In this document: positions 12,840 through 29,429 of the stretch, piece by piece
How the letters are laid out: every line of letters starts with the position of its first letter
How positions within the stretch are numbered: the stretch's first letter is position 1
Assembly (NCBI RefSeq): GCF_003947415.1
Contig: NZ_QHKL01000002.1
Span: 620,001 to 684,000, forward strand
Length of the DNA: 64,000 nucleotides
Source of the DNA: Amycolatopsis sp. WAC 01376
Lineage (GTDB): Bacteria > Actinomycetota > Actinomycetes > Mycobacteriales > Pseudonocardiaceae
Direction of reading: 5' to 3'
The notes under the pieces: generated by a model
Told to the model about the DNA's origin: nothing
Databases searched by the model: none
Seen by the model: the letters and a program-made list of their open reading frames with translations, nothing else
Translations under genes and position numbers: made by a program

Positions 12840-12960
12840 TTTCGGTACGGTGGCCGTGAATGTTTTTCCTCCTCCGCAACAATCGAGATGCGTCTTTCGG
12901 CCCATCCGGCTGATCATTGATGTGTCGATGACCATTTCCCTGGCGGTGGGAGAGAAATTC

Positions 12961-13935
12961 ATGAGCAGGTTCAAGAAGGTCATGATCGCGCTGGCCGCGG
13001 TCGCGGCGGTGGTACTGCTGGGGGGCGCGGCGGCGGGAACCTCCGCGAATACGAGCTGGAGACATTCCGACGCGGCGCTCGCACGTTCGCTGCAGGGCGG
13101 ATTCGAAAGCTCTCACGCCGACGTCAACGGCGTCCGGCTGCATTATGTCGCCGGTGGTTCCGGCAGCCCGGTGGTCCTGCTGCCGGGCTGGCCGCAGACG
13201 TGGTGGGCATTCCACAAGGTGATGCCGGCGCTGGCCGCGAACCACCGCGTGATCGCCGTCGACCTCCGCGGGATGGGCGGATCGTCGAAGCCGCAGGCTG
13301 GCTACGACAAGGAGACGATGGCCGCCGACATCCACGCGTTGCTCGCCAAGCTCGGGTACGCCAAGGCGGATATCGTCGGGCACGACATCGGCGCCATGGT
13401 CGCCCACAGCTACGGGATCAAATACCCGCAGGCGGTCGGGAAACTGGCGCTGATGGACGTGGTCGCGCCCGACAAGAGCCTCTACCAGCTGCCGTTGCTG
13501 CCCAGCGGGCCCGGCCAGTTCTCGCCGTGGTGGTGGACGTTCAACCAGCTGCAGGGCCTGCCGGAGCAGCTCGTCTCCGGTCGCTCGCGGTACCTGGTGG
13601 ACGCGATGATCGACCAGCTTTCGGTGGCGCCGTCGGCGGTGAGCGACTTCGACCGGAACGTCTACGCGCGTGCCTACCAAACGCGTGAGGCCGTCCGGGC
13701 CGGGAACGGCTGGTACCGGACGCTCAACCAGGACATCGCGGCTGGATCGTCGTACGGGAAGCTGACCGTGCCTGTGCTCGGTCTCGCGGGCGAGTTCAAT
13801 TACCAGTACTTCACCCAGGTGATACCCGCCAAGGCGGCCGATCCGCAGGTGGTCAAGATCGCCGGGGCCGGGCATTACCTTTCCGAAGAACAACCCGCTC
13901 AGGTCATCGGCGCGCTGAAGAATTTCCTCGGCTGA
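12961..13935 (+). CDS. secreted alpha/beta-hydrolase, epoxide hydrolase-like
   Basis: A 324-aa alpha/beta-hydrolase with a clear signal peptide: basic MSRFKK, a hydrophobic core to residue 22, and a likely cleavage near AAAGTSA. The nucleophile elbow is GHDIGA with Asp142 in place of Ser, and the oxyanion motif is PGWP near residue 75, as in epoxide hydrolases and haloalkane dehalogenases. A His in AGAGHYLSEEQPAQ completes the triad. I chose the ATG at 12961, which has GGGAGAG upstream; an upstream extension would run into the palindrome. Next to two epoxidase-like enzymes, extracellular opening of an epoxide is plausible. Dehalogenation is the alternative. Confidence 0.85.
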   Translation: MSRFKKVMIALAAVAAVVLLGGAAAGTSANTSWRHSDAALARSLQGGFESSHADVNGVRLHYVAGGSGSPVVLLPGWPQTWWAFHKVMPALAANHRVIAVDLRGMGGSSKPQAGYDKETMAADIHALLAKLGYAKADIVGHDIGAMVAHSYGIKYPQAVGKLALMDVVAPDKSLYQLPLLPSGPGQFSPWWWTFNQLQGLPEQLVSGRSRYLVDAMIDQLSVAPSAVSDFDRNVYARAYQTREAVRAGNGWYRTLNQDIAAGSSYGKLTVPVLGLAGEFNYQYFTQVIPAKAADPQVVKIAGAGHYLSEEQPAQVIGALKNFLG

Positions 13936-14040
13936 ATCCTTTGGAGGCAGTATTGAAGGCGTCCAGGCGAACTCGCCGATGGGATTCTGCGAAAAGGAAA
14001 AGTCCTGGAATTCCCAGCCTATCGGGCAAAGGTGGCTAAA

Positions 14041-14991
14041 ATGAAGGTTGGTGTTACCGGTGGCACCGGGTTCATCGGGCAGTACGTCTGCGAGGAACTC
14101 GCCGCGAGAGGACACACGCCGGTCGTGTTCGACCATCGTGGCGAGGGGGACGGCGGGCCGTGGGAGGTCATGCTGGGCGACATCCGTGACGCGACGGCAC
14201 TGACCGAACTCGCCGCGCATTGCGACGGGATCATCCACCTGGCCGCCGTGCTGGGCACCCAGGAGACGATCACCAATCCGCGTCCCGCGGTGGAGACCAA
14301 CGTCATGGGCGGCCTGAACTTCCTCGAGGCCGTCGCCCAGTACGACCTGCCCGGCGTGTACATCTGCGTCGGCAACCACTGGATGAACAACAGTTACTCG
14401 ATTTCGAAGACCACGGTCGAGCGGTTCGTCCGCATGTTCAACGCCGACCGCGGCACCCGCGTGAACTGCGTCCGCGCGGTCAACGCCTACGGCCCGCGCC
14501 AGAAGGCCGCGCCGCCGTTCGCCGCGGGCAAGGTCCGCAAGATCACCCCGGCGCTTGTCTGCCGGGCGCTGTCCGGCATCCCGGTGGAGCTCTACGGCGG
14601 TGGACGGCAGATCTCGGACATGGTGTGGGTCGGCGACGTCGCCCGCACCCTGGTGTCCTCTTTGGAGGTCGCCGCCGAGGGGCGGGTGCTGGAGAACACG
14701 GTCGAGATCGGGCCCGCCGATTCGGTGACGATCCGCGAGGTCGCGGAGCTCGTCATCGGCCTGTGCGAGCAGCGCGGCTATCCGCGGGTCGGCATCACCG
14801 ACCTGCCCATGCGCCCGGGCGAGACGCCGAACACCCCGGTCACGGCCGACGTTTCGACGCTGCTCTCCGTCGGCATCCAGCCGGAATCGCTGGTCACGCT
14901 GGAGGAGGGCATGACGAAGACGGTGGACTGGTACCTCGAGCACCGCGGCACCGCCTGGGACGTCCCCCCGGCCGGCCTCCGCGCGGCCTAG
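14041..14991 (+). CDS. NAD-dependent sugar-nucleotide epimerase/dehydratase (SDR)
   Basis: A 316-aa extended SDR with GGTGFIG at residues 7-13 and the catalytic YSISK pair (Tyr-x-x-x-Lys). It is the only sugar-nucleotide enzyme in the window. It lies close to a GT2-GtrA and GT39 pair, so it probably makes or modifies the sugar they transfer. The 4,6-dehydratase needed for a deoxysugar is absent, so the sugar may be a simple epimer. The ATG at 14041 has AAGGTGG six bases upstream. Confidence 0.85.
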   Translation: MKVGVTGGTGFIGQYVCEELAARGHTPVVFDHRGEGDGGPWEVMLGDIRDATALTELAAHCDGIIHLAAVLGTQETITNPRPAVETNVMGGLNFLEAVAQYDLPGVYICVGNHWMNNSYSISKTTVERFVRMFNADRGTRVNCVRAVNAYGPRQKAAPPFAAGKVRKITPALVCRALSGIPVELYGGGRQISDMVWVGDVARTLVSSLEVAAEGRVLENTVEIGPADSVTIREVAELVIGLCEQRGYPRVGITDLPMRPGETPNTPVTADVSTLLSVGIQPESLVTLEEGMTKTVDWYLEHRGTAWDVPPAGLRAA

Positions 14992-15002
14992 GTCCGCTCT
15001 CT

Positions 15003-15057
15003 GCGCGTGAAGGCCCCCTTCCCTCGGCTCAGCCGAGGGAAGGGGGTCTTCACGCGC
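15003..15057. terminator. 55-bp palindrome, GAAGGCCCCCTTCCCTCGGCT family
   Basis: Almost perfect hairpin just downstream of the SDR gene. A truncated relative lies at 57091-57122. It is the first of three different palindromes packed into 15003-15217 between convergent genes, and likely acts as a terminator. Confidence 0.75.
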
Positions 15058-15083
15058 GTCGTGTGGCTGGTAGGGCGGCCGTT

Positions 15084-15134
15084 CCGTGAAGGACTCCTTG
15101 AGGGACCCAGAGTCCCTCAAGGAGTCCTTCACGG
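15084..15134. terminator. 51-bp palindrome, GTGAAGG-CTCCTTGAGGGAC family
   Basis: Perfect 23-bp stem with a 5-base loop (CCAGA). Near-identical copies lie at 21319-21373 and 57247-57297, with the same loop and a compensatory pair change in each stem. Confidence 0.8.
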
Positions 15135-15162
15135 ACTGCGGAGCTGCCGCACCACCGGCCAA

Positions 15163-15217
15163 GTACATGAAGGCCCCCTTCCTTGCGCCAGGCGCAAGGA
15201 AGGGGGCCTTCATGTAC
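15163..15217. terminator. 55-bp palindrome, GTACATGAAGGCCCCCTTCC family
   Basis: Perfect stem ending three bases before the stop codon of the minus-strand methyltransferase at 15220. An almost identical copy lies at 57139-57193. Confidence 0.8.
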
Positions 15218-15219
15218 CG

Positions 15220-15918
15220 CTAAGGCTTGTGGACCTTCAGGATCAGCGAGACACCCCGCCGCGAGCGCGTCGGGAGGTATCGCTCCGCCGTGACGATCGC
15301 GGTCAGGGCGCGGTTGACCAGCCAGGGCGTGTGCTCGTTGAGTTCGTTCCCGCGGGCCGAACGCCGCCGCAGCGCCACCACCGGACGGAGCAGGACGTTC
15401 CAGCTCCACAGTTCGTCGACGACGAAGCCGGCGTCCTCGATGACCTTCCGCAGCGAAGCCCGGTCGTAGCGGCGCACGTGGTGCACCGCTACGTCGTGCG
15501 CCGACCACAGGTCCATTCCGGACGGGACGCTGATCAGCGCGGAGCCGCCGGGCCGCAGCACCCGGAACAGTTCCGCCGCGGCCTGGTCGTCTTCCTGGAT
15601 GTGCTCGAGGATTTCGAACGCCACCACCAGATCGAACGACGAAGACGGCAGGGGCAGGTCACGGGCGTCGGCGTGGATCGCGTCGAGACCGCGTGAGCGC
15701 GCGATTTCGACGGCGTTCTCGTCGTAGTCCGTGGCGACGACGTCCCAGCCGCGCGAGCGCAGCACCCGCGTGTTGCCGCCGCCCGCCGCGCCGATGTCGA
15801 GCGCGCGGCCGGGCGGGCCGAGCCGGTTCAGCTCGTCGGCGAGCAGGTGCCGCTTTTCCCGGAACCACCAGTGGTGGTCCTCCATCTCGGTGATACGCGT
15901 GACGTCCGCCGTCTTCAC
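15220..15918 (-). CDS. SAM-dependent methyltransferase
   Basis: A 232-aa class I methyltransferase with motif I LDIGAAGGGNTRV (near residue 41), acidic ATDYDEN, and FDLVVAFEILEHI for motifs II/III. The N-terminal HHWWFREKRHLL stretch is typical of methyltransferases found in glycan and lipid-linked sugar loci. The GTG start at 15918 has GGAAGGAG upstream and overlaps the GT2-GtrA stop in GTGA, so the genes are translationally coupled. It probably methylates the sugar or lipid carrier product handled by its neighbours. Confidence 0.87.
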   Translation of the reverse strand: MKTADVTRITEMEDHHWWFREKRHLLADELNRLGPPGRALDIGAAGGGNTRVLRSRGWDVVATDYDENAVEIARSRGLDAIHADARDLPLPSSSFDLVVAFEILEHIQEDDQAAAELFRVLRPGGSALISVPSGMDLWSAHDVAVHHVRRYDRASLRKVIEDAGFVVDELWSWNVLLRPVVALRRRSARGNELNEHTPWLVNRALTAIVTAERYLPTRSRRGVSLILKVHKP

Positions 15919-17153
15919 CGGCGCTCCTTCCGGTGCTGGGCGAAGACCCAGCGGTCGAGGGCCACGAACCGCAGCAGCGTCATCAGCCCGTAGGCGACGA
16001 TGAGCACGAGCAGTTCGACGACCGGCCCGGAGCCCGGGGCGATCAGGTGCAGCCCGGTCACGGCCGCCGTGGTCAGCAGATACGTGGTGGCGAACAGGAT
16101 CGCGGCGCGGGTGTGCAACCCGAGCCGGTGCCCGCCGCCGCGGTTGAACGTCCAGCGCCGGTTCGCCTCGGTGTTGGCCACCCCGACGAGTACGAGCGCG
16201 ACCAGGTTCGCCCCCGCCGGCGTCAGCGGTACGCGCAAGGGGAGATACAGGAGGGTGTAGAGCACTGTCGAGATGACGCCGATGACCGCGAAGCCCAGGA
16301 ATTTCGCCAAGGTCGCGGCCCGTGGTTCGGCGAGCACGGCGTCGGGATGGGTGGCGCGCAACTGCGGGATCTCCGGCACGTTCACCCGTCCTTTCCCGGC
16401 GGCGATCGCCCGGCCCACGCGGACCAGGCCCTTCAGGTTCCCCATCGCGGTCTGCGTGACCTTGACCCGCGAATCGATGTCCTCGACCCAATCCAGCGGC
16501 ACCTCGTGCACCCGCAGGCCGTTGTGCTCGGCCAGCATCAGCATTTCGGTGTCGAAGAACCAGTGGTCGTCCTCGACCGCTTCCAGCAGCTCGGCCACGG
16601 CGTCGCGCCTGGCCGCCTTGAAGCCGGCGGACGTGTCGGTGCTGCGCAGCCCGAACACATGCCGCGTGATCGCGTTGTAGGTGCGGGAGACGATCTCGCG
16701 TTTGAGGCTGCGGCGGATCCGCGAGCCGCGGCCGAGCCGGGTCCCGATGGTGATCTCGCAATGCCCGCTGACCAGTGGCGCGATCAGGGGAAGCAGGCTC
16801 TCGAGCCCGGTCGAGAGATCGACGTCCATGTAGGCGACGATGTCGGCGGTGCTGGCTCCCCACGTCGCCTTGATCGCCGCGCCCCGGCCGCGGACCGGCA
16901 CCCGCCGCGCGGAGATACGCGGGTTCCGTTCGGCCAGTTCGGTGGCGATCTCCCAGGTCCGGTCGGTGCTGCCGTTGTCGGCGATGGTGATCGACCAGGG
17001 AAACGGGAAGCCGTCGCCGAGGAACGCGCTCAGCGTGGTGATGCAGCCGTGCAGGGCACGTTCCTCGTTGAGCACCGGGATGACGATCTCGACGGTCGCC
17101 GTCGTGCGGCTCCCCGGGGCGAGGCGGGGTGCCGCGGTGAGTTCAGCCGTCAT
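15915..17153 (-). CDS. GT2 glycosyltransferase fused to GtrA-like membrane domain
   Basis: A 412-aa protein. Residues ~18-250 form a GT2 domain of the polyprenyl-phosphate sugar synthase type: VIPVLNEE, then YMDVDLSTG as the metal-binding DxD region. Residues ~280-410 have four hydrophobic segments and match GtrA. It is expected to put a sugar from a nucleotide donor onto a polyprenyl phosphate and help flip it. It lies six bases downstream of the GT39-type enzyme, giving a YkcC/YkcB-like pair. The GT39 partner would use this lipid-linked sugar on the outer face of the membrane. Confidence 0.88.
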   Translation of the reverse strand: MTAELTAAPRLAPGSRTTATVEIVIPVLNEERALHGCITTLSAFLGDGFPFPWSITIADNGSTDRTWEIATELAERNPRISARRVPVRGRGAAIKATWGASTADIVAYMDVDLSTGLESLLPLIAPLVSGHCEITIGTRLGRGSRIRRSLKREIVSRTYNAITRHVFGLRSTDTSAGFKAARRDAVAELLEAVEDDHWFFDTEMLMLAEHNGLRVHEVPLDWVEDIDSRVKVTQTAMGNLKGLVRVGRAIAAGKGRVNVPEIPQLRATHPDAVLAEPRAATLAKFLGFAVIGVISTVLYTLLYLPLRVPLTPAGANLVALVLVGVANTEANRRWTFNRGGGHRLGLHTRAAILFATTYLLTTAAVTGLHLIAPGSGPVVELLVLIVAYGLMTLLRFVALDRWVFAQHRKERR

Positions 17154-17159
17154 CGGGCA

Positions 17160-19160
17160 TCACGCTCCCGGTTTGCAGTCGAACAGGGCGGAGGTGAAGC
17201 CCATCCACGGGTTCGCGGTGTAGGCGGGCGGCGGGACGCGGGTGCAGTTGCGCACCACCCAGTCCTTGCGGGCGAGCGCGGTCGGGCTGTCGTAGGCGAA
17301 TCCGCCGAACAGCACGAACCGCACCTGTCCACTTTGGACGGCTTCGGCGAGACCGGCGGCGGTCGGCATCGGCATGGTGCCGACGAAGCCGCCCATCGGC
17401 ATCACGGACAGGCCCGCCCGGATGTAGGGCGAGGCGCCGGTGCCGCCGAAGGTCGCCAGGTCGAAACGCTCGCCGCGGTCGTTGGCCTTGAGGAAACCGA
17501 GGAGCTTCTGATCGGCGTCCGACGGCATCATCTGGAACATGATCGGCGGGGGCAACGGCATGGGCTGTCCGCCTGCCGCGCCGGGCTTCGGGCCGCCCGC
17601 CATGAACTTCGTCAGGTCGATGCCGGTGGAGAGCGCGTTCGGATTCGGCCCCGCGAGCGGGTTGAAGTTCTGGAACATCGCCGTACGCGGATCCGTCGGC
17701 GGCTGGAAGGCGGGCGCCGCCCAGGCGACCGGCCCGGCCAGCAGCGCGACCCCGGCCACGGCCCCGGTCACGATGGCGAACTTCCCCGTGCGACGCACGA
17801 GGACCAGCACCGCGGCGAGAACGGCCGCGACCGCGACGACAGGCCGCAGCCACGGCAAGTAGTCGCCGGAACGGCTCATCAGCACGAACGCCCAGGCGCC
17901 GGTGGCGAGCAGCCCGACCGGCAATACCCACGGGTGACGGCGGGTCGTCCAGGCGAAGTGCAGGCCCACGCCGGCGATCGCGGCGATGGCCGGTGCCAGG
18001 ATGCTCGTGTAGTACGGGTGGATGCTCTGCGAGAAGCTGAGCGCGCCGGCGAAGAGGACGAGCCAGCCGCCCCACAGCAGCCAGCCCGCGCGCTGCTTGT
18101 CGGTGCGCGGAGCACGGCCCGCGGCGACCAGGCCGACGACGAGCAGCAGCAGCGCCAGCGGCAGCAGCCACGAGATCTGGCCGCCGATCAGGTCGTTGAA
18201 CAGCCGGAACACGCCGGTGTCGCCGCCCTGGTCGACCGGCGTGACCTTGCCGTCGGGCAGGACGGGCAGTTCGGCCGAGTTCCCCGCCTTCGCGGCGTCC
18301 GTGCGGTCGAAGAGGTTGTAGGACCAGACCATCTGCCACACTGAGTTCGAGGTACTGCCGTCCATGTACGGGCGGGAGCCCGCGGGCGTGAACGACACGA
18401 TGAGCATCCAGATCGACGACACCGCGGCGGTGACCGTACCGGCGCCGAGCAAGTGCAGCACCCGGCGTCCCGCCGAGGTCGGCGCGGCGACGAGGTAGAC
18501 GATGCCGAGCACCGGCAGGATGGCCAGCGCCATGGCGAGCTTGATGTGGAAGCCGACGCCGACGAGCGCCGCGGTCAGCAGCAGCCAGCGCGGCGACGCC
18601 TTCTCCAGCGCCCGCCAGAAGGCGTAGGTCGCGACGAGCAGCGTCAGGATCAGCGTCGAGTCGGGCAGGTTGACCCGGGTGGCCGCGACCGTGATCGGCG
18701 TCGCGGCGAGCAGGACGGCGGCCAGTGCCGCCGGCGCGTGCCCGGCCCAGCGGCGCACGAGCACGAACAGGACGAACACCGAGACACCGCCCGCGATGAC
18801 GCCGGGCAACAGCAGCGCCCACGTCTCGTAGCCGAAGACGCGGACGGAGAGCGCCTGCAACCAGAGCGCGCCGGGTGCCTTGTCGACACTCATGAACCCG
18901 GCGGGATCGTAAGCGCCGTAAAGGAAGTTGTGCCAGTTCTGGGACATGCTGCGAACCGCGGCGGCGTAGGCGTAGTGTGCGGCGTTCCCGCCGATACCCC
19001 ACCCGTAGGCGACGCCGGCGACGAGTGCGCTCAGGACGGCGATGCGTTTGGCCGCCAGTGCGGACAACCCCGTCTTGGTCTTCTTCTTCGGCGTCCGCGC
19101 GGGCGGGGCAGCGCCCCGCGGCGGGGTGCTCGTGACCGGGGTGCCTAGGTCTTGGGACAC
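17160..19160 (-). CDS. GT39/ArnT-like membrane glycosyltransferase
   Basis: A 666-aa membrane protein with about 12 hydrophobic segments and a C-terminal extracytoplasmic domain. The first loop holds YDPAGFMSVDKAPG, the region with the conserved acidic residue of PMT/ArnT enzymes. The N-terminus is basic and Pro-rich (PKKKTKTG). The C-terminal domain is rich in Met, Pro and Gly (residues ~530-565), as in YkcB-type proteins. It should transfer a sugar from a polyprenyl phosphate to an acceptor outside the cytoplasm. The acceptor could be the cluster product, its carrier protein or a cell-wall lipid. Confidence 0.85.
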   Translation of the reverse strand: MSQDLGTPVTSTPPRGAAPPARTPKKKTKTGLSALAAKRIAVLSALVAGVAYGWGIGGNAAHYAYAAAVRSMSQNWHNFLYGAYDPAGFMSVDKAPGALWLQALSVRVFGYETWALLLPGVIAGGVSVFVLFVLVRRWAGHAPAALAAVLLAATPITVAATRVNLPDSTLILTLLVATYAFWRALEKASPRWLLLTAALVGVGFHIKLAMALAILPVLGIVYLVAAPTSAGRRVLHLLGAGTVTAAVSSIWMLIVSFTPAGSRPYMDGSTSNSVWQMVWSYNLFDRTDAAKAGNSAELPVLPDGKVTPVDQGGDTGVFRLFNDLIGGQISWLLPLALLLLVVGLVAAGRAPRTDKQRAGWLLWGGWLVLFAGALSFSQSIHPYYTSILAPAIAAIAGVGLHFAWTTRRHPWVLPVGLLATGAWAFVLMSRSGDYLPWLRPVVAVAAVLAAVLVLVRRTGKFAIVTGAVAGVALLAGPVAWAAPAFQPPTDPRTAMFQNFNPLAGPNPNALSTGIDLTKFMAGGPKPGAAGGQPMPLPPPIMFQMMPSDADQKLLGFLKANDRGERFDLATFGGTGASPYIRAGLSVMPMGGFVGTMPMPTAAGLAEAVQSGQVRFVLFGGFAYDSPTALARKDWVVRNCTRVPPPAYTANPWMGFTSALFDCKPGA

Positions 19161-19332
19161 GTTCTACTCCCTTCCCAGGAATAGGAGATGACGCGGCTCA
19201 CGGACGTGAGATACGCACCGCGAATTCGTGATCGTCTCCGAAAGTGTCGCACCGCGGTTTCGGTCACGTCTTATCCCAGCCTGCGCGTTCGCCGCCCGGG
19301 TTCACCGGCGAAGTGTCCTTTGAGGACAATTG

Positions 19333-20583
19333 TCAGCGAAGCCGGACGGGAAGCGCTTCGAGGCCGTGCATCACCATGCTGACGCGCCAGCGGAGACTTT
19401 CCGTGGGAACGGCTTCGCGCAGATTCGGGAACCGCGTGAGCAGGGCGGCGAGCGCGATTCCGCCTTCGAGCCTGGCCATCGGCGCGCCGAGGCAGTGGTG
19501 GATGCCGTGTCCGAAGGCGAGCTGCGGATTGTCCGCGCGGTCGAGCTCCAGTGCGTCCGCGCCGGGGAAACGGGCGGGGTCGCGGTTCGCGGCCAGCAAT
19601 GACACGATGACCAGCGACCGTGCCGGGATCGTCACTCCGCCGAGCTCGACTTCCTCGGTGGAGTAACGCATCGCCGCGTGTACCGGGCTTTCGTAGCGCA
19701 GGAACTCCTCGACCGCGGCGGGCATCCCGTCCGGATTCGCGCGCAACGCGGCGAGCTGCGCCGGGTTCTCGAGCAGGGCGAGAGTGGCGTTGCCGATGAG
19801 GTGCACGGTGGTCTCGTGCCCGGCGATGAGCAGGAGGAAGACCATCGACGTCAGCTCGTGCTCGGTCAGCCGGTCTTCGCCGTCGTGCACCGTGACGAGC
19901 GCCGAAAGCAGGTCCGTGCCGGGGTTCTCGCGCTTCTCGGCGAGGAGTTTCCTGACATAGCGCAGCATTTCGGCGGCCGCCGCGTCGAGTTCGTCGACGG
20001 GGAGCGCGCTGGCGGTGAGGATCTCGGTCCAGCCGTGGAAGGCGCCGGCCTCGTCCTCGGGTACGCCGAGCATCTCGGTGAGGACGCGGATCGGCAGCGG
20101 CAGCGCGAGCGCCTTGATCAGATCGACCTCGTCGAAGTCGGCCACGGCGTCGAGGAGTTCCGCTGTGATGGCCTCGATCCTGGGGCGCAGCTGGGCGATC
20201 CGGCGCACGGTGAACGCGGCGGACACCAGCTTTCTGAGCCGGGTGTGATCCGGCGGATCGAGGTTCAGCATATGCGTGTTCATGCCGAGCCGGACGTCCT
20301 CGGACAGCCCACGCCGGTCGCCGACGACGCCGGTGCGCCCGCTCAGCCCCGGATGCGCGAGGGCCTGGCGGACTTCGGCGTAGCCGCTGACCAGCCAGCC
20401 GCTGGTGCCGGAGGAGAGCGTGATCCTCCGGACCGGGCCGGTTTCGCGCAGCGCGGTATAGGCGGCGTGCCTTTCTGGCGCGCCACCGAACAGGAAATCG
20501 GAGCTGGAAGAGGTCGCAGAGGTCACTGAATCAGGTTCCCGTGCGCGCACTCGCGCCTTCTTCTCCTGGCTTGCCCGCGGCAT
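19333..20583 (-). CDS. cytochrome P450
   Basis: A soluble class I bacterial P450 (416 aa from the first ATG). It has the I-helix motif AGHETT, the K-helix EEFLRYESP and the heme loop FGHGIHHCLGAPMAR, where Cys is the heme ligand. It resembles the CYP105/107 groups common in biosynthetic clusters. A GTG at 20526 has GGAACC eight bases upstream and may be the true start, giving 397 aa; the ATG at 20583 has no clear RBS. No ferredoxin gene is adjacent. It is divergent from the apoprotein gene and likely oxidises the cluster product. Confidence 0.92.
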   Translation of the reverse strand: MPRASQEKKARVRAREPDSVTSATSSSSDFLFGGAPERHAAYTALRETGPVRRITLSSGTSGWLVSGYAEVRQALAHPGLSGRTGVVGDRRGLSEDVRLGMNTHMLNLDPPDHTRLRKLVSAAFTVRRIAQLRPRIEAITAELLDAVADFDEVDLIKALALPLPIRVLTEMLGVPEDEAGAFHGWTEILTASALPVDELDAAAAEMLRYVRKLLAEKRENPGTDLLSALVTVHDGEDRLTEHELTSMVFLLLIAGHETTVHLIGNATLALLENPAQLAALRANPDGMPAAVEEFLRYESPVHAAMRYSTEEVELGGVTIPARSLVIVSLLAANRDPARFPGADALELDRADNPQLAFGHGIHHCLGAPMARLEGGIALAALLTRFPNLREAVPTESLRWRVSMVMHGLEALPVRLR

Positions 20584-20770
20584 ATGAATTACGCACGAAG
20601 CGCGTGAGTTTATTGCACCTTTTTTCTTTCGGCCTACTCGAAAACTGCTCGAAGAAATCGTTGACGATCTAGGTCCGATGATCGTAACGTTGTTACCAGG
20701 ACGCCGGGGGTAACGGAACCCGCGCCTGGTGAAGTCGGAAAATCCCTGTCAATGAATCGGAGTGATTACT
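20584..20770. promoter_or_regulatory. divergent promoter region, P450 / apoprotein
   Basis: 187 bases, AT-richer than the surroundings (TTTTTTCTTTCGGCC near 20622), between divergent genes. GGAG at 20759-20762, eight bases before GTG 20771, decides the apoprotein start; the GTG at 20762 lies inside this RBS. Confidence 0.6.
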
Positions 20771-21190
20771 GTGTCCGCAAAGCTTGTCGCCAAGTTCGCC
20801 GGTTCCGCCATCGCCGCTCTCGGCCTCCTGGCCGTCGTCGCCCCTGGTGCCTCCGCCGCGGCGGCCGTCACGGTCACGCCGTCGTCGGGGCTCTCGGACG
20901 GTGCGGTGGTCCAGGTGGTCGGAACCGGCCTCACGCCGGGCGGTACCTATCGCGTCGGCGAGTGCGCCCAGGACGCGGCGGGGCAGTTCCCTTGCAGCCC
21001 TTCGCAGCAGTCGCTGGTCGCTGACGCGGCCGGGAAGATCTCGGCCTCGGTCACCGTGCAGAAGAACTTCACCGGCGTGCTGCCCGACGGCAGCAGCTAC
21101 GGCGCGGTGGACTGCAAGGCCATCACCTGCGTCGTCGGCCTCGGTGACGCCGCCGGCAACGGTGGCGGCGTGGTCATCAGCTTCAGCTGA
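20771..21190 (+). CDS. secreted neocarzinostatin-family apoprotein
   Basis: A 139-aa secreted protein of the enediyne chromoprotein apoprotein family (neocarzinostatin, C-1027, actinoxanthin, macromomycin). A signal peptide covers residues 1-29 (cleavage near PGASA), and the mature form is about 110 aa, the family's usual size. Family hallmarks: VTPSSGLSDG at the mature N-terminus, Cys65/Cys75 spaced by ten and Cys115/Cys120 by five as in the two disulfides of neocarzinostatin, and the C-terminal VGLGDAAGNG plus VVISF. Known members form a seven-stranded beta sandwich that binds and protects a labile hydrophobic chromophore. Here it sits alone between a P450 and an SsuD-like gene, in a cluster with no visible enediyne PKS. 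It may sequester the cluster product. Stand-alone members also exist, so ligand identity is open. Confidence 0.92.
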   Translation: MSAKLVAKFAGSAIAALGLLAVVAPGASAAAAVTVTPSSGLSDGAVVQVVGTGLTPGGTYRVGECAQDAAGQFPCSPSQQSLVADAAGKISASVTVQKNFTGVLPDGSSYGAVDCKAITCVVGLGDAAGNGGGVVISFS

Positions 21191-21728: not shown

Positions 21729-22823
21729 TCAGAGCGTCTCCGCGAGCAGACCGCGTTTCCGCAGCAGCGGCATGACGCCTTCGCCGAACGTGTAGGCCTC
21801 TTCGAGGTGCGGCTGAGCGGAAAGGATCAGGTGGTCGAGGCCGAGGGCGTGGTACTCCTCGATCCGTTCGGCCACTTCCTCGTGGCTGCCCACCAAGGCC
21901 GTGCCGACGCCGGGGCGCACGAGGCCGTAGCCCGCCCACACGTTGGGGTGGATCTCCAGCGAGTCGGTGCTGCCGGAGTGCAGCGCCGCCATCCGCCGCT
22001 GGCCCTCGGATTCGGTGGCGGCGAACCGTTCCTGCGCCTGCCGGATCCTGGCCGGGTCCATCCCGGCGAGCAGCTGGTCGGCCACCTTCCACGCTTCGGC
22101 CGAGGTGTCCCGGCTGATCACGTGGAATCGGGTGCCGAAACGCAACGAGCGGCCCAAGGCCTCCGCTCGCGCACGTGACCGTTCGAGGTGTGAGGCCATC
22201 GCCGCGGGCGTTTCGCCCCACATCAGCAGGACGTCCGCCTGCGCGGCCGCGACTTCCAGCGCGGCCGACGAAGAACCGCCGAGGAACAGCGTGGGCCGCA
22301 CCGCGTGCGGGCGGGCGACCATGCCGGCCTTCAACTTGTAATGCGTGCCGGTGAAGTCGAACCGCGAACCCGGCCAAGCCTGACGGAAGACGTCCATGAA
22401 TTCGCCGGTGCGCGCGTACCGCTGGTCGTGGTCGAGCCAGTCGCCGTAGCGGCGCTGCTCGTCGGGGTCGCCGCCGGTCACGATGTTCAGCAGCAGCCGC
22501 GAATCGGAGACGCGCTGGAACGTCGCCGCGGTCTGCGCGGCCAGCAGCGGCGAGATGAAACCCGGCCGCATCGCGATCATGAACTTCACCGACCGCGTCA
22601 CGCCCACCAGCGCCGACGCCACGACCCACGGGTCCTCGCAGAACAACCCGAACGGCGTGAGCATCCCGGTGAACCCGAAGCGGTCGGCTGCGAGCGCGAC
22701 CTGGGTCAGGTACTCGATGTCCGGTTCGCGCCGGGCGCCGGGTGCCGCGACGCCGTCGGCGGTCTTGGCGACTTCCCGCCCGTCGCCGTGTGACGGCAGG
22801 AACCAGTGCAGTTGCAGGCTCAT
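21729..22823 (-). CDS. SsuD-type FMNH2-dependent monooxygenase (LLM class)
   Basis: A 364-aa luciferase-like monooxygenase that closely follows E. coli SsuD (alkanesulfonate monooxygenase) from the start: WFLPSHGDG, then NIVTGGDP and a late PHLEEAY. SsuD uses FMNH2 and O2 to release sulfite from alkanesulfonates. No sulfonate transporter or FMN reductase is adjacent, so a biosynthetic oxidation is as likely as sulfur scavenging. The ATG at 22823 overlaps the stop of the acyl-CoA dehydrogenase upstream (ATGA), so it is coupled to that gene. It is the last of three genes in a minus-strand operon. Confidence 0.85.
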   Translation of the reverse strand: MSLQLHWFLPSHGDGREVAKTADGVAAPGARREPDIEYLTQVALAADRFGFTGMLTPFGLFCEDPWVVASALVGVTRSVKFMIAMRPGFISPLLAAQTAATFQRVSDSRLLLNIVTGGDPDEQRRYGDWLDHDQRYARTGEFMDVFRQAWPGSRFDFTGTHYKLKAGMVARPHAVRPTLFLGGSSSAALEVAAAQADVLLMWGETPAAMASHLERSRARAEALGRSLRFGTRFHVISRDTSAEAWKVADQLLAGMDPARIRQAQERFAATESEGQRRMAALHSGSTDSLEIHPNVWAGYGLVRPGVGTALVGSHEEVAERIEEYHALGLDHLILSAQPHLEEAYTFGEGVMPLLRKRGLLAETL

Positions 22824-23824
22824 GAGTGCTCCCCGAACAGTGAGTGCGCGATCGCTTCCAACGGTCCCGAGGCGAGTTCCGCCTCCAGCCACAACGCGCG
22901 CCGGAACCAGCGGTGCAGCGGGAATTCCCAGGTGACGCCCATGCCGCCGCAGACCTGGATCGCCGTCTCACAGACGGTGATCGCGGCGCGGCTCGCGGCG
23001 TGCGCGGCGCACGCGACGGCTTCCGCGGAGGGGGCTTCGCCTGCCGCGGCGCGGTAGGCCAGTGAACGCGCGAGCTCGACCTCGGCGTAGCCATCGGCGA
23101 GCTGCTGGCTCACCGCTTGGAAGGAACCGATGGGCCGGTCGAACTGGGTCCGCGCCTTCGCGTGCTCGACGGCGATCGCCAGCGCCCGGTCCGCGACGCC
23201 GATGGCCTCGCCCGCGAGCAGGGTCGTCGCCCGGCCGCGGATCGCGGTGAGCAGCGGCGCGGCGGCGGTCGGCCCGATCAGCAGCCGTCCCTCGGCTCCG
23301 GCCAGCGCGATGTCCGACGTCGCCCGGAGCGGGTCGACGCCGTCGCGCGCGGACAGCGAAGCGGCAGCCGGGTCGACGCCGAACAACGCCACCCCGGCAG
23401 GCGTACGGGCGGCGACCACGATCTCAGTGGCGACGTCGGCGTGCAGGACGGCCTGCACCGCGCCGTCCAGCCGCCAGCCGTCGTCGCGACGTGCCGCGCG
23501 ACAGGTGCCGCTGCCGTCCGCCAGCGTCGCCGGGCCGGGCGGTTCGACGCCCGCGGCCCGGTAGACGGGCAGGGCGAGCGCGGCCGTGGCGAACCAGGGC
23601 ACCGGGTGCAGCGCGCGACCGCCCTCCTCGGCCAGCAGAACGAACTCCGCCAGGCCGAGATCCGCGTCCAGCCAGCCCTGCCGGACCAGTTCGGGCCACG
23701 CGGCGAGGTCCTGCTCGCCGTCGTCGGCCAGCGCCGCGATCCGATCGAGGCCGTACGTGTCCTCGAGGTAGGTGCGGGCGGCGGTCTTGAGCCCGGTCTG
23801 GTCCTCGGTCAGCGCGAAATCCAT
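22820..23824 (-). CDS. acyl-CoA dehydrogenase, FadE partner-type subunit
   Basis: A 334-aa acyl-CoA dehydrogenase-fold protein. It has the C-terminal GGMGVTWEFPLHRWFRRA block typical of one subunit of actinobacterial FadE heterotetramers, but lacks the catalytic-Glu motif (EGTSEI) that its neighbour has. In that family two unlike subunits share active sites. I chose the ATG at 23824, which has AGGGAG upstream; an in-frame TTG lies one codon earlier. It likely pairs with the 24991-23834 gene, and would oxidise a CoA-bound acid used as starter or side chain. Confidence 0.83.
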   Translation of the reverse strand: MDFALTEDQTGLKTAARTYLEDTYGLDRIAALADDGEQDLAAWPELVRQGWLDADLGLAEFVLLAEEGGRALHPVPWFATAALALPVYRAAGVEPPGPATLADGSGTCRAARRDDGWRLDGAVQAVLHADVATEIVVAARTPAGVALFGVDPAAASLSARDGVDPLRATSDIALAGAEGRLLIGPTAAAPLLTAIRGRATTLLAGEAIGVADRALAIAVEHAKARTQFDRPIGSFQAVSQQLADGYAEVELARSLAYRAAAGEAPSAEAVACAAHAASRAAITVCETAIQVCGGMGVTWEFPLHRWFRRALWLEAELASGPLEAIAHSLFGEHS

Positions 23825-23833
23825 CAATGCTCC

Positions 23834-24991
23834 CTAACGTGATTTCGGCAGACCGAGGACCCGCTCCGCGACGATGCCGCGCAGGATTTCCGATGTTCCG
23901 CCCTCGATGCTGTTGGCCCGGCTGCGTAACCGCTGGTGCTGCCAGTAGCCGCCCCAGAAGGCGTCGGTCCCGTCCGCCGCCGCGCCCGCGCCGAGCAGCC
24001 GCAGAGCGAGCGCGCTCACCCGCTGGTTCGCCCGCGACCAGCGCAGTTTCAGGATCGAGCTCTCCGGTCCCGGTTCGCCGGTCCGTTCCATCGCGGCCAG
24101 CGCGCGGTATCCGGTGAAGCGCAGACCCTGCAGATCGACGTAGAGCTCGGCGATCTCGGCGCGGACCCGCGGGTCGGTGTCGCCTCCGCACGCCTTGGCG
24201 GTCTTGACCAGCCTGTCGAGCTGGACGGCCAGCCGCGCGGTGAGCGTGATGCCGAACGTGCCGCGCTCATGCGCGAGAGTGGTCAGCGCGACTCGCCAGC
24301 CTTGTCCCGGTTCGCCGAGCACACAGTCATCGGGAATTTCGACACCGTTCACCAGGATCTGGTTGAAATCGGTGTCGCCGGACAATTGTCGCAGCGGCCG
24401 CACTTCGACACCGGGTGCGCGCATGTCGAGCAGGAAACAGGTCAGTCCGCGGTGTTTGGCCGCGTCCGGGTCCGTGCGGGCGAGCAGCAGACAATAGTCG
24501 GCCAAATGGGCGTAGGAGGACCACACCTTTTCGCCATCGACGACGTAGCCGCCGTCGACGCGGCGGGCGCGGGTGCGCACCGATGCGAGGTCCGAGCCGG
24601 CGTCCGGTTCGGAGAAGCCCTGACAGAAGATCGTTTCCCCGGAAAGGATGCGGGGAAGATGGGTGGCCTTCTGCACGTCCGTTCCATAGTGGACGATCGC
24701 GGGGCCGACCATGCCGAGCCCGATCACCCCGGCGTGGTCCGGCGCCTCGGCCAGCGCGCTCTCTTCGGCGTAGATCGCTTGGTACGCGGGAGAAAGCCCT
24801 CGCCCGCCGTGTTCGGCAGGCCAGGTCAGCCCCGCGTATCCGGCCGCGTGCAGCGCCTTGCTCCAGGCGCGCAATTCGTCAGCGGACCAAGCACGAGGCG
24901 CGCTCGGCGTGCTTTCGGGTAACTGTCCGGCCAGCCAGGCTTTGAGGCCAGCCCGGAATGCCGCCTGATCTTCGCTGTCGTCCAGCCGCAT
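23834..24991 (-). CDS. acyl-CoA dehydrogenase, catalytic FadE-type subunit
   Basis: A 385-aa acyl-CoA dehydrogenase with CQGFSEPDAGSDLASVRT (FAD/substrate loop) and SIEGGTSEILRGIVAERVLG near the C-terminus, which carries the catalytic Glu. Its partner gene starts ten bases after its stop. The start is set at ATG 24991 rather than further upstream because MRLDDSEDQAAFRA matches the family N-terminus. It should introduce an alpha,beta double bond in an acyl-CoA. It is first in its operon and divergent from the thiolase operon. Confidence 0.87.
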   Translation of the reverse strand: MRLDDSEDQAAFRAGLKAWLAGQLPESTPSAPRAWSADELRAWSKALHAAGYAGLTWPAEHGGRGLSPAYQAIYAEESALAEAPDHAGVIGLGMVGPAIVHYGTDVQKATHLPRILSGETIFCQGFSEPDAGSDLASVRTRARRVDGGYVVDGEKVWSSYAHLADYCLLLARTDPDAAKHRGLTCFLLDMRAPGVEVRPLRQLSGDTDFNQILVNGVEIPDDCVLGEPGQGWRVALTTLAHERGTFGITLTARLAVQLDRLVKTAKACGGDTDPRVRAEIAELYVDLQGLRFTGYRALAAMERTGEPGPESSILKLRWSRANQRVSALALRLLGAGAAADGTDAFWGGYWQHQRLRSRANSIEGGTSEILRGIVAERVLGLPKSR

Positions 24992-26300
<1,309 letters not shown>

Positions 26301-26302
26301 CC

Positions 26303-27514
26303 ATGCGCGAAGAGGAGTTCTTCCGCCGGGCGCGGGCAGGTTCGGCCGGCCCGCTGGAGGGTGTGCGCGTCCTGGACGTGACCAAGGTCTGGTCCGGTCC
26401 GCTCGCCACCTGCGTGATGGCGGACATGGGGGCCGACGTGGTCCGGATCGAACTCGCCGACGGCCACGACGGCGAGGTGCCGCCGAACATCCCCGGCACC
26501 GGGCTGTCGTGGTTCCGGGAAACCGTGCACCGCAACAAACGCAGTGCCGGGCTGGACCTGCGCGTCGACTCCGACCGCAAGCGCTTCCTGGAACTGGTGG
26601 CACACGCGGACATCGTGGTCGAGAACTACAAACCCGGCACGCTGGACGGCTGGGGTGCCGGGTACGAGGCCTGCCGGTCGGCACGCGAGGACGTCGTGTT
26701 CGTGTCTGTGTCCGGCTTCGGGCAGTACGGCCCTAAGTCGCATCTGCCCGCCTACGACCCCGCGATCCAGGCCGCGGCCGGGTGGATGTCGCTCAACGGC
26801 CTGCCCGAGGGGCCGCCGGTGCGTGCTCCGACGTTCCTCGCCGACGAGCTGGCCGGTCTGCACGCGGCGATCGGCGCGCTCGCCGCGCTGACGCACCGGA
26901 ACCGGACCGGCGAAGGACAACACGTCGATGTGTCCATGGTGGACTGTCTGCTCGCCAGCAGCAGCGGCCTGCCGACCCTCGCCGCGACGGGCGCCCCGCC
27001 GCCGAGGGTGGGCAACGAGACCGATTTCGTCGTACCCGCCAATGTCTACGCATGCGCGGACGGCCATTTGTATCTCGCCGTCGCGATCAACCGGCATTGG
27101 CGCGCGCTCGCCGAGATCATCGGCAGACCGGAACTCGGCCTCGCCGACGGATTCCGCACGGCCGCCGAACGGATGACCAACCGCGACGCGATCAACACGA
27201 TGATCTCCGGCTGGTGCGCGGGACGTCCGCTCGCCGAAGCACTCGACGTGCTGAACGGCCGCGGGCTCGTCGCCGCGCCGGTGCGCACGCTCACCGAAGC
27301 CGTCGCCGACGAGCATGTCCAAGTGCGGGCGATGCTCCAGGAAACGGTGCTGAGCAACGGCACCACCGCGCCGATCGTCGGGCCGGCGGTGAAATTCTCT
27401 CGTACTCCGACGAAGGTCCGCCACGGTGCGCCGAGGCCGGGCGCGGACACCGCCGAAGTACTCGCGGAGCTCGCGGCAAACGATGAGAAGAATAGTTTGC
27501 GCCGCGCTTCTTAA
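26303..27514 (+). CDS. class III CoA-transferase (CaiB/BaiF family)
   Basis: A 403-aa CaiB-type CoA-transferase. The N-terminus PLEGVRVLDVTKVWSGPL and the catalytic Asp in AYDPAIQAAAG fit the family, as do NYKPGTL and GQYGP. Such enzymes move CoA between acids through an aspartyl anhydride. The start at ATG 26303 has GGAAAGG upstream. It probably activates or recycles an acid for the type II PKS. A second, unusual CoA-transferase lies at 43060. Confidence 0.88.
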   Translation: MREEEFFRRARAGSAGPLEGVRVLDVTKVWSGPLATCVMADMGADVVRIELADGHDGEVPPNIPGTGLSWFRETVHRNKRSAGLDLRVDSDRKRFLELVAHADIVVENYKPGTLDGWGAGYEACRSAREDVVFVSVSGFGQYGPKSHLPAYDPAIQAAAGWMSLNGLPEGPPVRAPTFLADELAGLHAAIGALAALTHRNRTGEGQHVDVSMVDCLLASSSGLPTLAATGAPPPRVGNETDFVVPANVYACADGHLYLAVAINRHWRALAEIIGRPELGLADGFRTAAERMTNRDAINTMISGWCAGRPLAEALDVLNGRGLVAAPVRTLTEAVADEHVQVRAMLQETVLSNGTTAPIVGPAVKFSRTPTKVRHGAPRPGADTAEVLAELAANDEKNSLRRAS

Positions 27515-27551
27515 AATGGAAACAAATTGTGCTGGAAAACGAGGAGGCGTC

Positions 27552-28292
27552 GTGGCGGAGCACCACCGGGCCCTGGTCACCGGGGCTTCACGAGGGATCG
27601 GCCGGGCCGTGGCGCTGCGGCTGGCCCAGGAGGGCTACGCCGTCGCGGGTTGTTTTTCGAAAGCGAGCGCCGCGTCGGAGGAAACCGAAGAGGACATCGC
27701 CGCCGTCGGCGTGCCCTCGTATTTCGCGGAATGCGACGTCGCCGATTCCGAAGCGGTCGAGCGATTCGTCAAGGACGCCGAGGAGAAGCTCGGCCCGATC
27801 GATCTGCTGATCAACAACGCCGGGATCACCAAGGACAGCCCGCTGGTACTCGCCAGCGCCGAGGACTGGCACGCGGTACTGGCCACGAACCTCACCGGCA
27901 CCTGGAACTTCTGCCGCACCATGGCCTTCCGGTTCATGAAGAACCGTGGCGGCGTCGTGGTCAACATGTCCTCGGTCGCCGGCGTCTACGGCCACGCGGG
28001 CCAGACCGCCTATTCCGCCAGCAAGGCCGGGATCATCGGCTTCAGCAAGTCGCTGGCCAAGGAGGTCGCCGGGCACGGTGTCCGGGTCAACGTCGTCGCT
28101 CCCGGTTTCATCGAGACCGACATGACCGGTTCCCTCGGCGAAAAGCAGCGCGCCAAGGCGCTCACGCAGATTCCGGCCAAACGCTTCGGCACCGGCGAAG
28201 ACGTCGCCGAACTGGTCGCGTTCCTGGTCTCCGACCGCGCCTCGTACATCACCGGACAGGTGCTGCAGATCGACGGGGGGATCACGCTGTGA
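27552..28292 (+). CDS. 3-oxoacyl-ACP ketoreductase (FabG-like)
   Basis: A 246-aa SDR with TGASRGIG, NNAGIT, Ser in NMSSVAG and the catalytic YSASK pair, and a C-terminus ending ASYITGQVLQIDGG, all as in FabG. The GTG at 27552 follows GAGGAGG. It overlaps the dehydratase gene in GTGA. It is the ketoreductase of a dissociated, reducing PKS: with the dehydratase it would turn each beta-keto group into a double bond. No enoyl reductase is in the window, so a polyene is the expected product. Confidence 0.93.
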   Translation: MAEHHRALVTGASRGIGRAVALRLAQEGYAVAGCFSKASAASEETEEDIAAVGVPSYFAECDVADSEAVERFVKDAEEKLGPIDLLINNAGITKDSPLVLASAEDWHAVLATNLTGTWNFCRTMAFRFMKNRGGVVVNMSSVAGVYGHAGQTAYSASKAGIIGFSKSLAKEVAGHGVRVNVVAPGFIETDMTGSLGEKQRAKALTQIPAKRFGTGEDVAELVAFLVSDRASYITGQVLQIDGGITL

Positions 28293-28675
28293 CCGGGATT
28301 CCCGCCTACGCCGCGCCGTTGCGGGCGGTCGACACGCTGGACGTCCGGCAGCACGGGGACGATCTGGAGCTGGTCGCCCGGATCACCGTGGACGGCAAGG
28401 AACCCAACCTGCGCGGGCATTTCCCCGGCCAGGCGGTGTACCCCGGCGTCTTCGTCATCGAGACGCTGGAGCAGGCGATGCGGGAGGCCGCCAACGCCCG
28501 GTTGCGCACCGTCCGCTCGGTCCGGTTCCTGGCGCCCCTGCTCGACGGCGACCTCATGGTGCTCACGGCCACCGCGAAGCGCACCCCGGACGGCTGGGAA
28601 GTCATCGGTAGGGCCGTACTCGGCGAGACGACGACGGCCAAGGTCCGCGCCACCTTCGAGGAGGACGCGGAATGA
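28289..28675 (+). CDS. FabZ-type hotdog 3-hydroxyacyl-ACP dehydratase
   Basis: A 128-aa hotdog protein with the FabZ active-site segment GHFPGQAVYPGVFVIE: catalytic His44 and Glu58 at the normal spacing. It overlaps both neighbours by four bases. With the next gene, which lacks the His, it likely forms a heterodimeric dehydratase as described for aryl-polyene systems (ApeI/ApeP). Confidence 0.88.
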   Translation: MTGIPAYAAPLRAVDTLDVRQHGDDLELVARITVDGKEPNLRGHFPGQAVYPGVFVIETLEQAMREAANARLRTVRSVRFLAPLLDGDLMVLTATAKRTPDGWEVIGRAVLGETTTAKVRATFEEDAE

Positions 28676-29136
28676 CCGAGCACCACGACATCCGGATCCT
28701 CCTCCCGCAGCGGTATCCGCTGCTGCTGGTGGACCGGGTGCTGGACCTGGTCCCCGGCGAGTCGATCGTCACGATCAAGGCGGTCACCGGCACCGAGCCG
28801 TGCTACGCGGGGATTCCCGACGGCGCACCGGCGAGCCGGTACGACTACCCGAAGTCGCTGATGATCGAGTCCTTCGGGCAGAGCGCCGCGCTCCTCTGGC
28901 TCGACGGCCGCGCGCCGGTCGAGGACGACGACTCGACGTTGATGTTCATCGGTGCCCGTGACTACCACTTCACGGCCGCCGCCCGCCCTGGTGACGTGCT
29001 GCGCCACGAGGTCCGCCTGGAATCGGTACTGGCCGACACGGCCTTCGCCACCGGCCGGACCTGGGCCGGTGATCGCCTGATCGCCACCGTCACCACCTTG
29101 ACCGCGACGCGGCGCCCTGTGCGGCCCGCGGCGTGA
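28672..29136 (+). CDS. FabZ-like hotdog protein lacking catalytic His
   Basis: A 154-aa hotdog protein. LLPQRYPLLLVDRV matches the FabZ N-terminus. The expected HFPG segment is replaced (RYDYPKSLMIES): Glu66 is kept but the position 14 residues before it is Ala52, not His. It is probably a non-catalytic or half-active partner of the preceding dehydratase. It starts four bases before that gene's stop, which supports equal production. Confidence 0.85.
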   Translation: MTEHHDIRILLPQRYPLLLVDRVLDLVPGESIVTIKAVTGTEPCYAGIPDGAPASRYDYPKSLMIESFGQSAALLWLDGRAPVEDDDSTLMFIGARDYHFTAAARPGDVLRHEVRLESVLADTAFATGRTWAGDRLIATVTTLTATRRPVRPAA

Positions 29137-29426: not shown

Positions 29427-29429
29427 ACC

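Follow-up and report, generated by a model that had tools for sequence, protein, structure and literature searches.

Gene content of the locus

The window, that is, the whole stretch of 64,000 nucleotides that was analyzed, corresponds to C21:620001-684000 of the 9.07 Mb genome of Amycolatopsis sp. WAC 01376; minus coordinates denote positions to its left. It contains a gene for a neocarzinostatin-family apoprotein, with predicted oxygenation, halogenase-like, and sugar-transfer genes on one side and a type II polyketide synthase (PKS) operon on the other. The predicted features outside that operon are as follows.

870-1898 (+), ABC transporter ATPase (Pfam; DrrA-type C terminus)
1895-2710 (+), presumed membrane partner of the ABC ATPase (from position and conservation only; 59% identity in the relative G072)
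3906-4343 (-), SgcJ-family protein (NCBIfam TIGR02246, 128 bits; PDB SgcJ entry 4i4k, 155 bits)
4356-5525 (-), HsaA-type two-component flavin hydroxylase (Pfam Acyl-CoA_dh_2; PDB 3-HSA hydroxylase, 182 bits)
5602-7005 (-), Na+/H+ antiporter (Pfam)
7018-8283 (-), halogenase-like FAD enzyme (Pfam Trp_halogenase; CmlS model 243 bits, below its cutoff of 900)
8323-9711 (-), halogenase-like FAD enzyme (profile matches; PDB halogenases, best 252 bits)
9916-11310 (+), Lsd18/MonCI-like FAD epoxidase 1 (PDB Lsd18, 176 bits; MonCI, 160 bits)
11324-12715 (+), FAD epoxidase-like enzyme 2 (58% identical to epoxidase 1)
12754-13935 (+), epoxide-hydrolase-like alpha/beta hydrolase (Pfam; PDB 6kxr, "putative hydrolase," 341 bits; Cif-type hydrolases)
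14041-14991 (+), NAD-dependent epimerase/dehydratase (profile matches)
15220-15918 (-), methyltransferase (profile match)
15915-17153 (-), GT2/GtrA glycosyltransferase (profile match)
17160-19160 (-), PMT-type membrane glycosyltransferase (profile match)
19333-20583 (-), cytochrome P450 (profile match; 59% homologue in the G072 cluster)
20762-21190 (+), neocarzinostatin-family apoprotein, predicted secreted carrier (start at 20762 or 20771; PF00960, PDB match, and dN/dS)
21729-22823 (-), SsuD-like flavin monooxygenase (transcribed toward the apoprotein gene; the two are also neighbors in G072)
22820-25048 (-), two acyl-CoA-dehydrogenase-like enzymes (profile matches)
25014-27514 (+), thiolase and CoA-transferase III (profile matches)
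41655-46096 (+), acyltransferase 3, CoA-transferase III, and aminotransferase V (where the conserved island ends on the right)

Genes of the three kinds that the sequence-only reading had placed around the carrier, namely, halogenases, P450s, and glycosyltransferases, were thus recovered, the two halogenase-like genes being named from sequence similarity. The hydroxylase at 4356 to 5525 matches the HsaA model below that model's cutoff. Its PDB matches include no SgcC entry, and a candidate assignment as SgcC-like was dropped in favor of an HsaA-type enzyme. SgcJ, an accessory gene by which nine-membered enediyne clusters are recognized, is present in the island. Near the left end of the island lie a UvrA-like ATPase (PF17755), a probable MFS transporter (its portion within the window scores 32.6 bits; cutoff, 33.4), and, at -6041, a response regulator with a LuxR-type domain. 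Left of the island, C21:600516-607293 (L003) encodes a nonribosomal peptide synthetase (NRPS) with C-A-PCP-reductase domains and a dehydrogenase E1 alpha/beta-like pair; no match to this NRPS was seen where the genomes G060, G063, and G076 were compared.

The carrier is a neocarzinostatin-family apoprotein

The reading frame from 20771 to 21190 (+) is free of stops and encodes 139 aa; an alternative GTG start in the same frame, 9 bases upstream at 20762, would give a protein of 142 aa. Membership in PF00960 calls for a full-length profile match above the curated cutoff, and the apoprotein aligns with positions 1 to 110 of the 110 in the profile (E value, 2.4e-39; 134 bits; cutoff, 25). Neocarzinostatin (NCS) chains in the PDB match at an E value of 3e-28, and 61 of 112 aligned positions are identical to NCS; homology to these solved structures gives the fold. 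The N terminus resembles a signal peptide as judged by eye, and all four cysteines align with Cys37, Cys47, Cys88, and Cys93 of NCS, giving the two cysteine pairs expected of PF00960. The earlier description of a neocarzinostatin-type carrier with a signal peptide and Cys spacings of ten and five is borne out. Among seven orthologues, dN/dS ranges from 0.04 to 0.24 across 21 pairs. The gene is genuine and under purifying selection. A search of viral contigs found no relatives of the apoprotein.

The sequence-only reading had proposed a comparison with the ligand pocket of neocarzinostatin, which we take to be lined by W39, L45, F52, F76, F78, Q94, and S98. By alignment, these residues are not kept: W39 is replaced by Q, L45 by F, F76 by V, F78 by P, Q94 by V, and S98 by G, and F52 is opposite a gap. 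Since the corresponding positions also differ across other aligned PF00960 members, the mismatch bears on the ligand and not on family membership. The aligned pocket residues would fit a ligand other than the NCS chromophore, and they do not indicate which one.

A highly reducing type II PKS operon adjoins the apoprotein

The operon to the right of the apoprotein gene contains the following features.

27552-29426 (+), ketoreductase (KR), two dehydratase-like proteins, and acyl carrier protein (ACP) of a type II PKS (profile and PDB matches)
29430-30632 (+), ketosynthase (KS; Cys-His-His intact)
30629-31741 (+), chain length factor (CLF; no catalytic Cys)
31719-32834 (+), second ketosynthase (Cys-His-His intact)
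32831-36848 (+), KS-like fragment and alpha/beta hydrolase, hotdog thioesterase-like, DsbA-like, and class II aldolase-like proteins
36859-39636 (+), fused acyl-CoA ligase/P450, 925 aa (profile matches)
39633-41330 (+), second acyl-CoA ligase (profile match)

The KR at 27552 is FabG-like (234 bits to PDB 3osu), the dehydratase-like proteins start at 28289 and 28672, and the ACP starts at 29172. With an intact KS triad and a CLF lacking the cysteine, all components expected of a highly reducing type II PKS are present, confirming the dissociated PKS reported earlier beside the apoprotein; the second ketosynthase goes beyond what had been listed. The KS at 29430 is nearest to PDB 6kxd (385 bits, versus 194 for the actinorhodin KS), presumably the ishigamide polyene KS.

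The ligase-P450 served as a marker of the operon and was detected in 12 of 397 genomes of the order, eight of them in other genera. Five of these eight also have an enediyne PKS (PksE) (G136, G277, G312, G349, and G448), which in G277 lies on the same contig at about 58 kb; no PksE was found in the other three, G126, G134, and G425. The operon itself was inspected in G126, G425, G136, and G037, with gene calling recovering only part of it in G425, and the remaining marker genomes of other genera are assigned by the ligase-P450 only. G037 has a homologous operon and a PksE and lacks the apoprotein. Genome-wide, no PF00960 match above the cutoff was found in G037 or in any of the eight other-genus marker genomes. 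The sequence-only reading had named KS/CLF clusters lacking the apoprotein, in genomes carrying it elsewhere, as evidence against itself; operons or markers lacking the apoprotein do exist, and an apoprotein elsewhere is absent from all nine genomes. The fused gene of the window corresponds to two separate genes in G037 and G136. G126 (L123-L124) and G425 (L127-L128), which belong to another family, carry the operon, and neither PksE nor apoprotein was found there.

Enediyne PKS cassettes are present in trans

No PksE was found in C21:560001-704000, a stretch of 144 kb reaching from -60 to +84 kb of the window. A genome-wide search with the 2005-aa PksE of G072 hits nothing in this stretch except the KS of the window (34%), and the E3/E4/E5/E/E10 cassette expected of a nine-membered enediyne cluster is absent from -60 to +84 kb. 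The largest protein encoded there is a 1608-aa NRPS (C-A-PCP-reductase), whose domains rule out this gene left of the window as an enediyne PKS. The earlier remark that no enediyne PKS was in view thus holds for the 60 kb on the left side. The same reading had offered, as one refutation of a non-enediyne carrier, a PksE no more than about 30 kb away on that side; it is lacking here and nearly present in G072, where the distance is 32 kb.

Elsewhere in the genome, three full-length PksE matches occur, at C22:23699 (74%), C25:211938 (68%), and C24:423637 (65%). The C22 core cassette spans approximately C22:14-32 kb and encodes a PksE with the domain order KS-AT-KR-DH together with UnbV_ASPIC, two DUF1702 proteins, a GMC oxidoreductase, a P450, a thioesterase, and a carboxyl transferase. 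The matches of the DUF1702 proteins do not distinguish the E2 from the E3 subfamily. The thioesterase is nearest to PDB 4i4j ("ACP-polyene thioesterase," 248 bits), which we take to be SgcE10. Beside this cassette, no homologues of SgcJ, the flavin hydroxylase, or the epoxidases were found. The C25 cluster has homologues of SgcJ, the 4356 hydroxylase (72%), and both epoxidases (69% to epoxidase 1 and 62% to epoxidase 2), and the C24 cluster has homologues of SgcJ, the hydroxylase (62%), and epoxidase 1 (53%).

Three regulators that neighbor the C22 core share 82, 72, and 70% identity with the one at -6041. No upstream motif shared by island and C22 core was accepted; one dyad motif, found with its reverse complement in two and two regions, was treated as chance. 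Besides the apoprotein of the window, the genome encodes one weaker PF00960 match (69 bits; L008:80-379 (+), C24:453080), which lies 25 kb from the C24 PksE, a conventional linked locus; a third is absent.

Island and core genes share one cluster in a relative

In G072, a single 80 kb stretch carries SgcJ, the P450, the ABC transporter, the KS/CLF operon, the apoprotein, an epoxidase homologue (54% to epoxidase 1), UvrA, the regulator, and a PksE cassette. Its apoprotein is 47% identical to that of the window, is convergent with the same SsuD-like gene, and lies 32 kb from the PksE; it is nearer to the type found in G034 (54%). The genes of G072, C25, and C24 were matched against the Amycolatopsis sp. 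WAC 01376 genome at 40% identity and 55% coverage. The 72 gene calls of G072 comprise 29 that match the island only, 15 that match the C22 core only, 27 that match neither, and one, a LuxR-type regulator, that matches both. Flanking control regions gave 1, 1, and 0 matches. In the C25 cluster (30 genes), 5 match the island only, 13 the C22 core only, 0 both, and 12 neither; the corresponding numbers for the C24 cluster (26 genes) are 3, 12, 0, and 11. The G072 PksE is 76% identical to that of C22 over 600 aa, and many other cassettes of the genus reach 77 to 83%. An MDMPI-type gene is common to the G072, C24, and C25 clusters and occurs in neither the island nor the C22 locus.

An EHN-type epoxide hydrolase is encoded outside the island at 54683 to 55864 (+) of the window, with homologues inside the G072, C24, and C25 enediyne clusters; the best C21 match of these homologues, at 54743 to 55858, is outside the island.

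In Actinomadura rupiterrae (L107), the apoprotein adjoins homologues of epoxidase 1 (68%) and epoxidase 2 (70%), the flavin hydroxylase, and SgcJ. Two homologues of PksE-cluster genes are also present (76% to C25:219786 and 64% to G072:53444). No PksE itself was found within the 20 kb seen, and no KS/CLF within 10 kb of the apoprotein. Because SgcJ, the hydroxylase, and the epoxidases recur in PksE clusters, including that of G072 (SgcJ and epoxidase 1), these island genes are best read as enediyne genes.

The island is conserved and, in single-contig genomes, lies megabases from the core

The conserved island measures approximately 52 kb, from about -6.0 to 46.1 kb of the window. Six other genomes of the genus (G060, G024, G015, G063, G007, and G076) keep the locus at 86 to 100% identity per gene, a range taken over 20 kb and called genes only, the caller having missed the dehydratase and ACP genes of G015. 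In G060, G063, and G076, which are single-contig genomes, every gene between -5278 and 46096 is retained (85 to 100%), and the immediate flanks change; farther out, G060 and G063 share flanks and G076 shares neither. Of these three genomes, G060 and G076 also have the -6041 regulator, which was not found in G063. To the right of the island, the variable stretch contains a tRNA-Arg gene at 54118 to 54191 (-), a possible insertion site; the 20 kb preceding the window contain no tRNA.

All seven island genomes possess a C22-type PksE, and it is the only PksE found in G007, G024, G076, and G060. Along the contig, the apoprotein and this PksE are 4.5 Mb apart in G063, 3.4 Mb in G060, and 3.1 Mb in G076; if the G063 contig is circular, the distance the other way is 3.5 Mb. 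Counting PksEs of every type, the closest one in G063 is 2.5 Mb from the apoprotein. This 7/7 co-occurrence of island and core may reflect shared descent, as the 19 of 80 genus genomes with the C22 core may be one lineage. The G060 PksE is split over two overlapping frames (G060:C1:6992762-6998583), an assembly error or a broken gene.

Amycolatopsis is very rich in enediyne cassettes, with a PksE of at least 50% identity in 64 of 80 genomes and three copies in the genome studied here. PF00960 occurs in 35 of the 80 and is not significantly associated with PksE over the genus (31/35 versus 33/45; P = 0.16). A PksE lies no more than 70 kb from 14 of the 44 PF00960 matches; another 25 are farther away or on another contig, and the last 5 come from genomes lacking PksE. 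The 14 matches above 100 bits all belong to the 25, 8 of them only through different contigs. Other genomes account for 42 matches, and the surroundings of 20 of these were examined.

The C22-type PksE (97 to 100% over 600 aa) accompanies the KS/CLF island in 7 of its 19 genomes. Four others (G013, G034, G002, and G038) have a different apoprotein locus, whose protein is 49 to 55% identical to that of the window. The G013 and G034 loci combine this apoprotein type with a PKS of 1776 to 1796 aa, and a methyltransferase of the G013 locus is nearest to PDB 3i53 (449 bits; next best, 263), presumably NcsB1 of neocarzinostatin. Homologues of epoxidase 2 at 45% identity or more occur in 17 of the 19 genomes; G050 has only a 37% match, and none was found in G014 at an E value of 1e-50. 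Where epoxidase and C22-type PksE share a contig (G063, G060, G076, G002, G026, and G020), they are 2.2 to 4.8 Mb apart, setting aside extra G063 epoxidase copies that belong to other PksE clusters. In the remaining 11 of the 17, the two genes fall on separate contigs; as the contig with the PksE often starts about 28 kb away from it, epoxidase and PksE may still be linked in these drafts. Further tailoring loci resemble that of G013 in G043 and G074 (PKS, 75%) and differ from it in G026, G045, and G020. G014 (L135-L136) has a C22-type core with its usual neighbors and no visible tailoring locus.

A split enediyne pathway as the likely explanation

We consider it likely, with a probability of roughly 0.6, that the apoprotein serves a chromoprotein enediyne of the nine-membered type, the pathway for which would be split over two chromosomal places and would draw an appendage from the polyene-type II PKS. 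This reading starts from what sequence comparison shows, namely, the gene identities, the conservation of the island, the three PksE cassettes in trans, and the one-cluster arrangement in G072. The island would supply the apoprotein and core-finishing enzymes (SgcJ, the FAD epoxidases, and the epoxide hydrolase), as well as halogenase-like, sugar-transfer, and methyl-transfer enzymes, export, and UvrA-like self-protection. The KS/CLF operon would make an acyl appendage, activated by the acyl-CoA ligases and presumably attached to the core. The unlinked PksE cassette, most likely that at C22:14-32 kb, would make the reactive core, so that both loci would contribute to a joint product. The exported apoprotein would then bind and shield the finished chromophore.

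Several observations count against a split pathway. G014 and G050 have the core and lack any FAD epoxidase homologue above 37% identity, PF00960 and PksE are not associated over the genus, and the G072 PksE is no nearer to that of C22 than are many others. The KS/CLF marker occurs in three genomes without PksE, and the G060 PksE is split. Moreover, the MDMPI-type gene is in neither locus, the EHN epoxide hydrolase is outside the island, no upstream motif is shared, the -6041 regulator is missing from G063, and the G072 apoprotein is nearer to the G034 type.

The sequence-only reading had suggested that the ligand is not an enediyne and that the apoprotein is a carrier for a halogenated, oxygenated polyene, the product of the KS/CLF PKS, in which case the PksE cassettes would be unrelated. 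The missing PksE from -60 to +84 kb and the loss of the neocarzinostatin pocket aromatics agree with such a carrier, as does the fact that MonCI/Lsd18-type epoxidases could also act on a type II PKS polyene; moreover, four genomes of the genus have PF00960 and no PksE of at least 50% identity, and that of G049 lies beside a modular PKS. However, SgcJ, the HsaA-type hydroxylase, and the epoxidases also recur in PksE clusters where no KS/CLF was seen (C25, C24, and, within 10 kb, A. rupiterrae), and the G072 apoprotein shares one cluster with a PksE. The KS/CLF marker without an apoprotein in nine genomes, three of them without PksE, also speaks against it, a weak comparison given that six of the nine (G037, G136, G277, G312, G349, and G448) have a PksE. 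A non-enediyne ligand is therefore unlikely, and this suggestion of the earlier reading is not retained. That two pathways merely lie side by side, one half for enediyne tailoring and the apoprotein (3906-21190) and the other for a separate type II PKS metabolite (21729-41330), would account for the operon or its marker occurring without the apoprotein, in three genomes without PksE, for the convergent genes at which the halves meet, and for the A. rupiterrae apoprotein, SgcJ, and epoxidases lacking a KS/CLF within 10 kb. It is made doubtful by the seven genomes that keep the halves together (ends checked in three) and by G072, where both halves adjoin a PksE and the apoprotein is convergent with the same SsuD-like gene.

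As for which core is used, the C25 and C24 cassettes are both present in the genome, and C25 has 62 to 72% homologues of island genes. A partnership of the island with either of them in place of C22 nevertheless seems highly improbable, as G007, G024, G076, and G060 keep the island with a C22-type PksE only, and C25 and C24 each already carry a copy of SgcJ, of the flavin hydroxylase, and of an epoxidase.

The same C22 core coexists with other unlinked tailoring loci, so the islands may be exchangeable. The KS/CLF type accounts for 7 genomes on this core and another type, neocarzinostatin-like by one methyltransferase, for 4. Somewhat short of even odds, we tentatively suggest that in one Amycolatopsis group a fixed core cassette is combined with exchangeable tailoring islands at unlinked places, several of which bring an apoprotein of their own, such that carrier and side group would be swapped together and the warhead kept constant. 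Natural swapping of this kind, if true, would allow the fit between apoprotein pockets and ligands to be studied directly.

Relation to known systems

The neocarzinostatin pathway uses an iterative type I naphthoate PKS, in contrast to the type II KS/CLF operon of the island. The two systems share the apoprotein family, with its four cysteines and signal-peptide-like start, and differ in that the island lacks a PksE. The genes for C-1027 (lidamycin) form one cluster, whereas core and tailoring genes are unlinked here; SgcJ is shared, the 4356 hydroxylase is HsaA-type here, and the thioesterase of the unlinked core is nearest to 4i4j. The highly reducing type II PKSs of ishigamide and of the skyllamycin side chain share KS/CLF, KR, DH, and ACP with the operon, including 6kxd as the nearest solved KS; here these genes are accompanied by the SsuD-like enzyme, fused ligase-P450, second KS, and apoprotein. 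A divided pathway may have been reported for the cyanosporaside clusters.

Amycolamycins come from Amycolatopsis (PMC8037709). According to the excerpted text of that report, the cluster of Amycolatopsis sp. HCa4, a strain of the same genus, is enediyne-derived with core genes E and E2 to E11, and the product differs in its dimethylsalicylyl and mandelate moieties, with no type II PKS named in the excerpt (PMC8037709). An excerpt on Amycolatopsis sp. BCA-696 places enediyne genes over about 590 kb (PMC11237095), and another proposes a type II PKS region as the acyl-chain source of an Amycolatopsis lipopeptide (PMC11446937). In the excerpted survey, E3/E4/E5/E/E10 are common to all enediynes, E2 predicts nine-membered rings, 21 nine-membered clusters are expected, and apoprotein genes occur in seven producers of those (PMC5181780). 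Enediyne mining in that work probes the PksE cassette and reads its neighborhood (PMC5181780). If core and tailoring loci can be unlinked, predictions from PksE neighborhoods would miss appendages and apoproteins, and the core would look orphan. Among the matches listed, open-licence titles and abstract starts describe neither an unlinked enediyne core with a tailoring locus nor a KS/CLF appendage. If a polyene-type II PKS does feed a chromoprotein enediyne, it would represent, within the open-licence literature searched, a side-group source not described before.

Other apoprotein loci of the genus

The genomes with PF00960 and no PksE of at least 50% identity are G016, G046, G049, and G071. 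Their proteins are better candidates for non-enediyne carriers than that of the window. The G049 protein (L060:9762-10202; 85.5 bits) follows a modular PKS and a BTAD regulator. In G029, G064, and G041, rough mapping places another apoprotein type at loci that are also unlinked to PksE.
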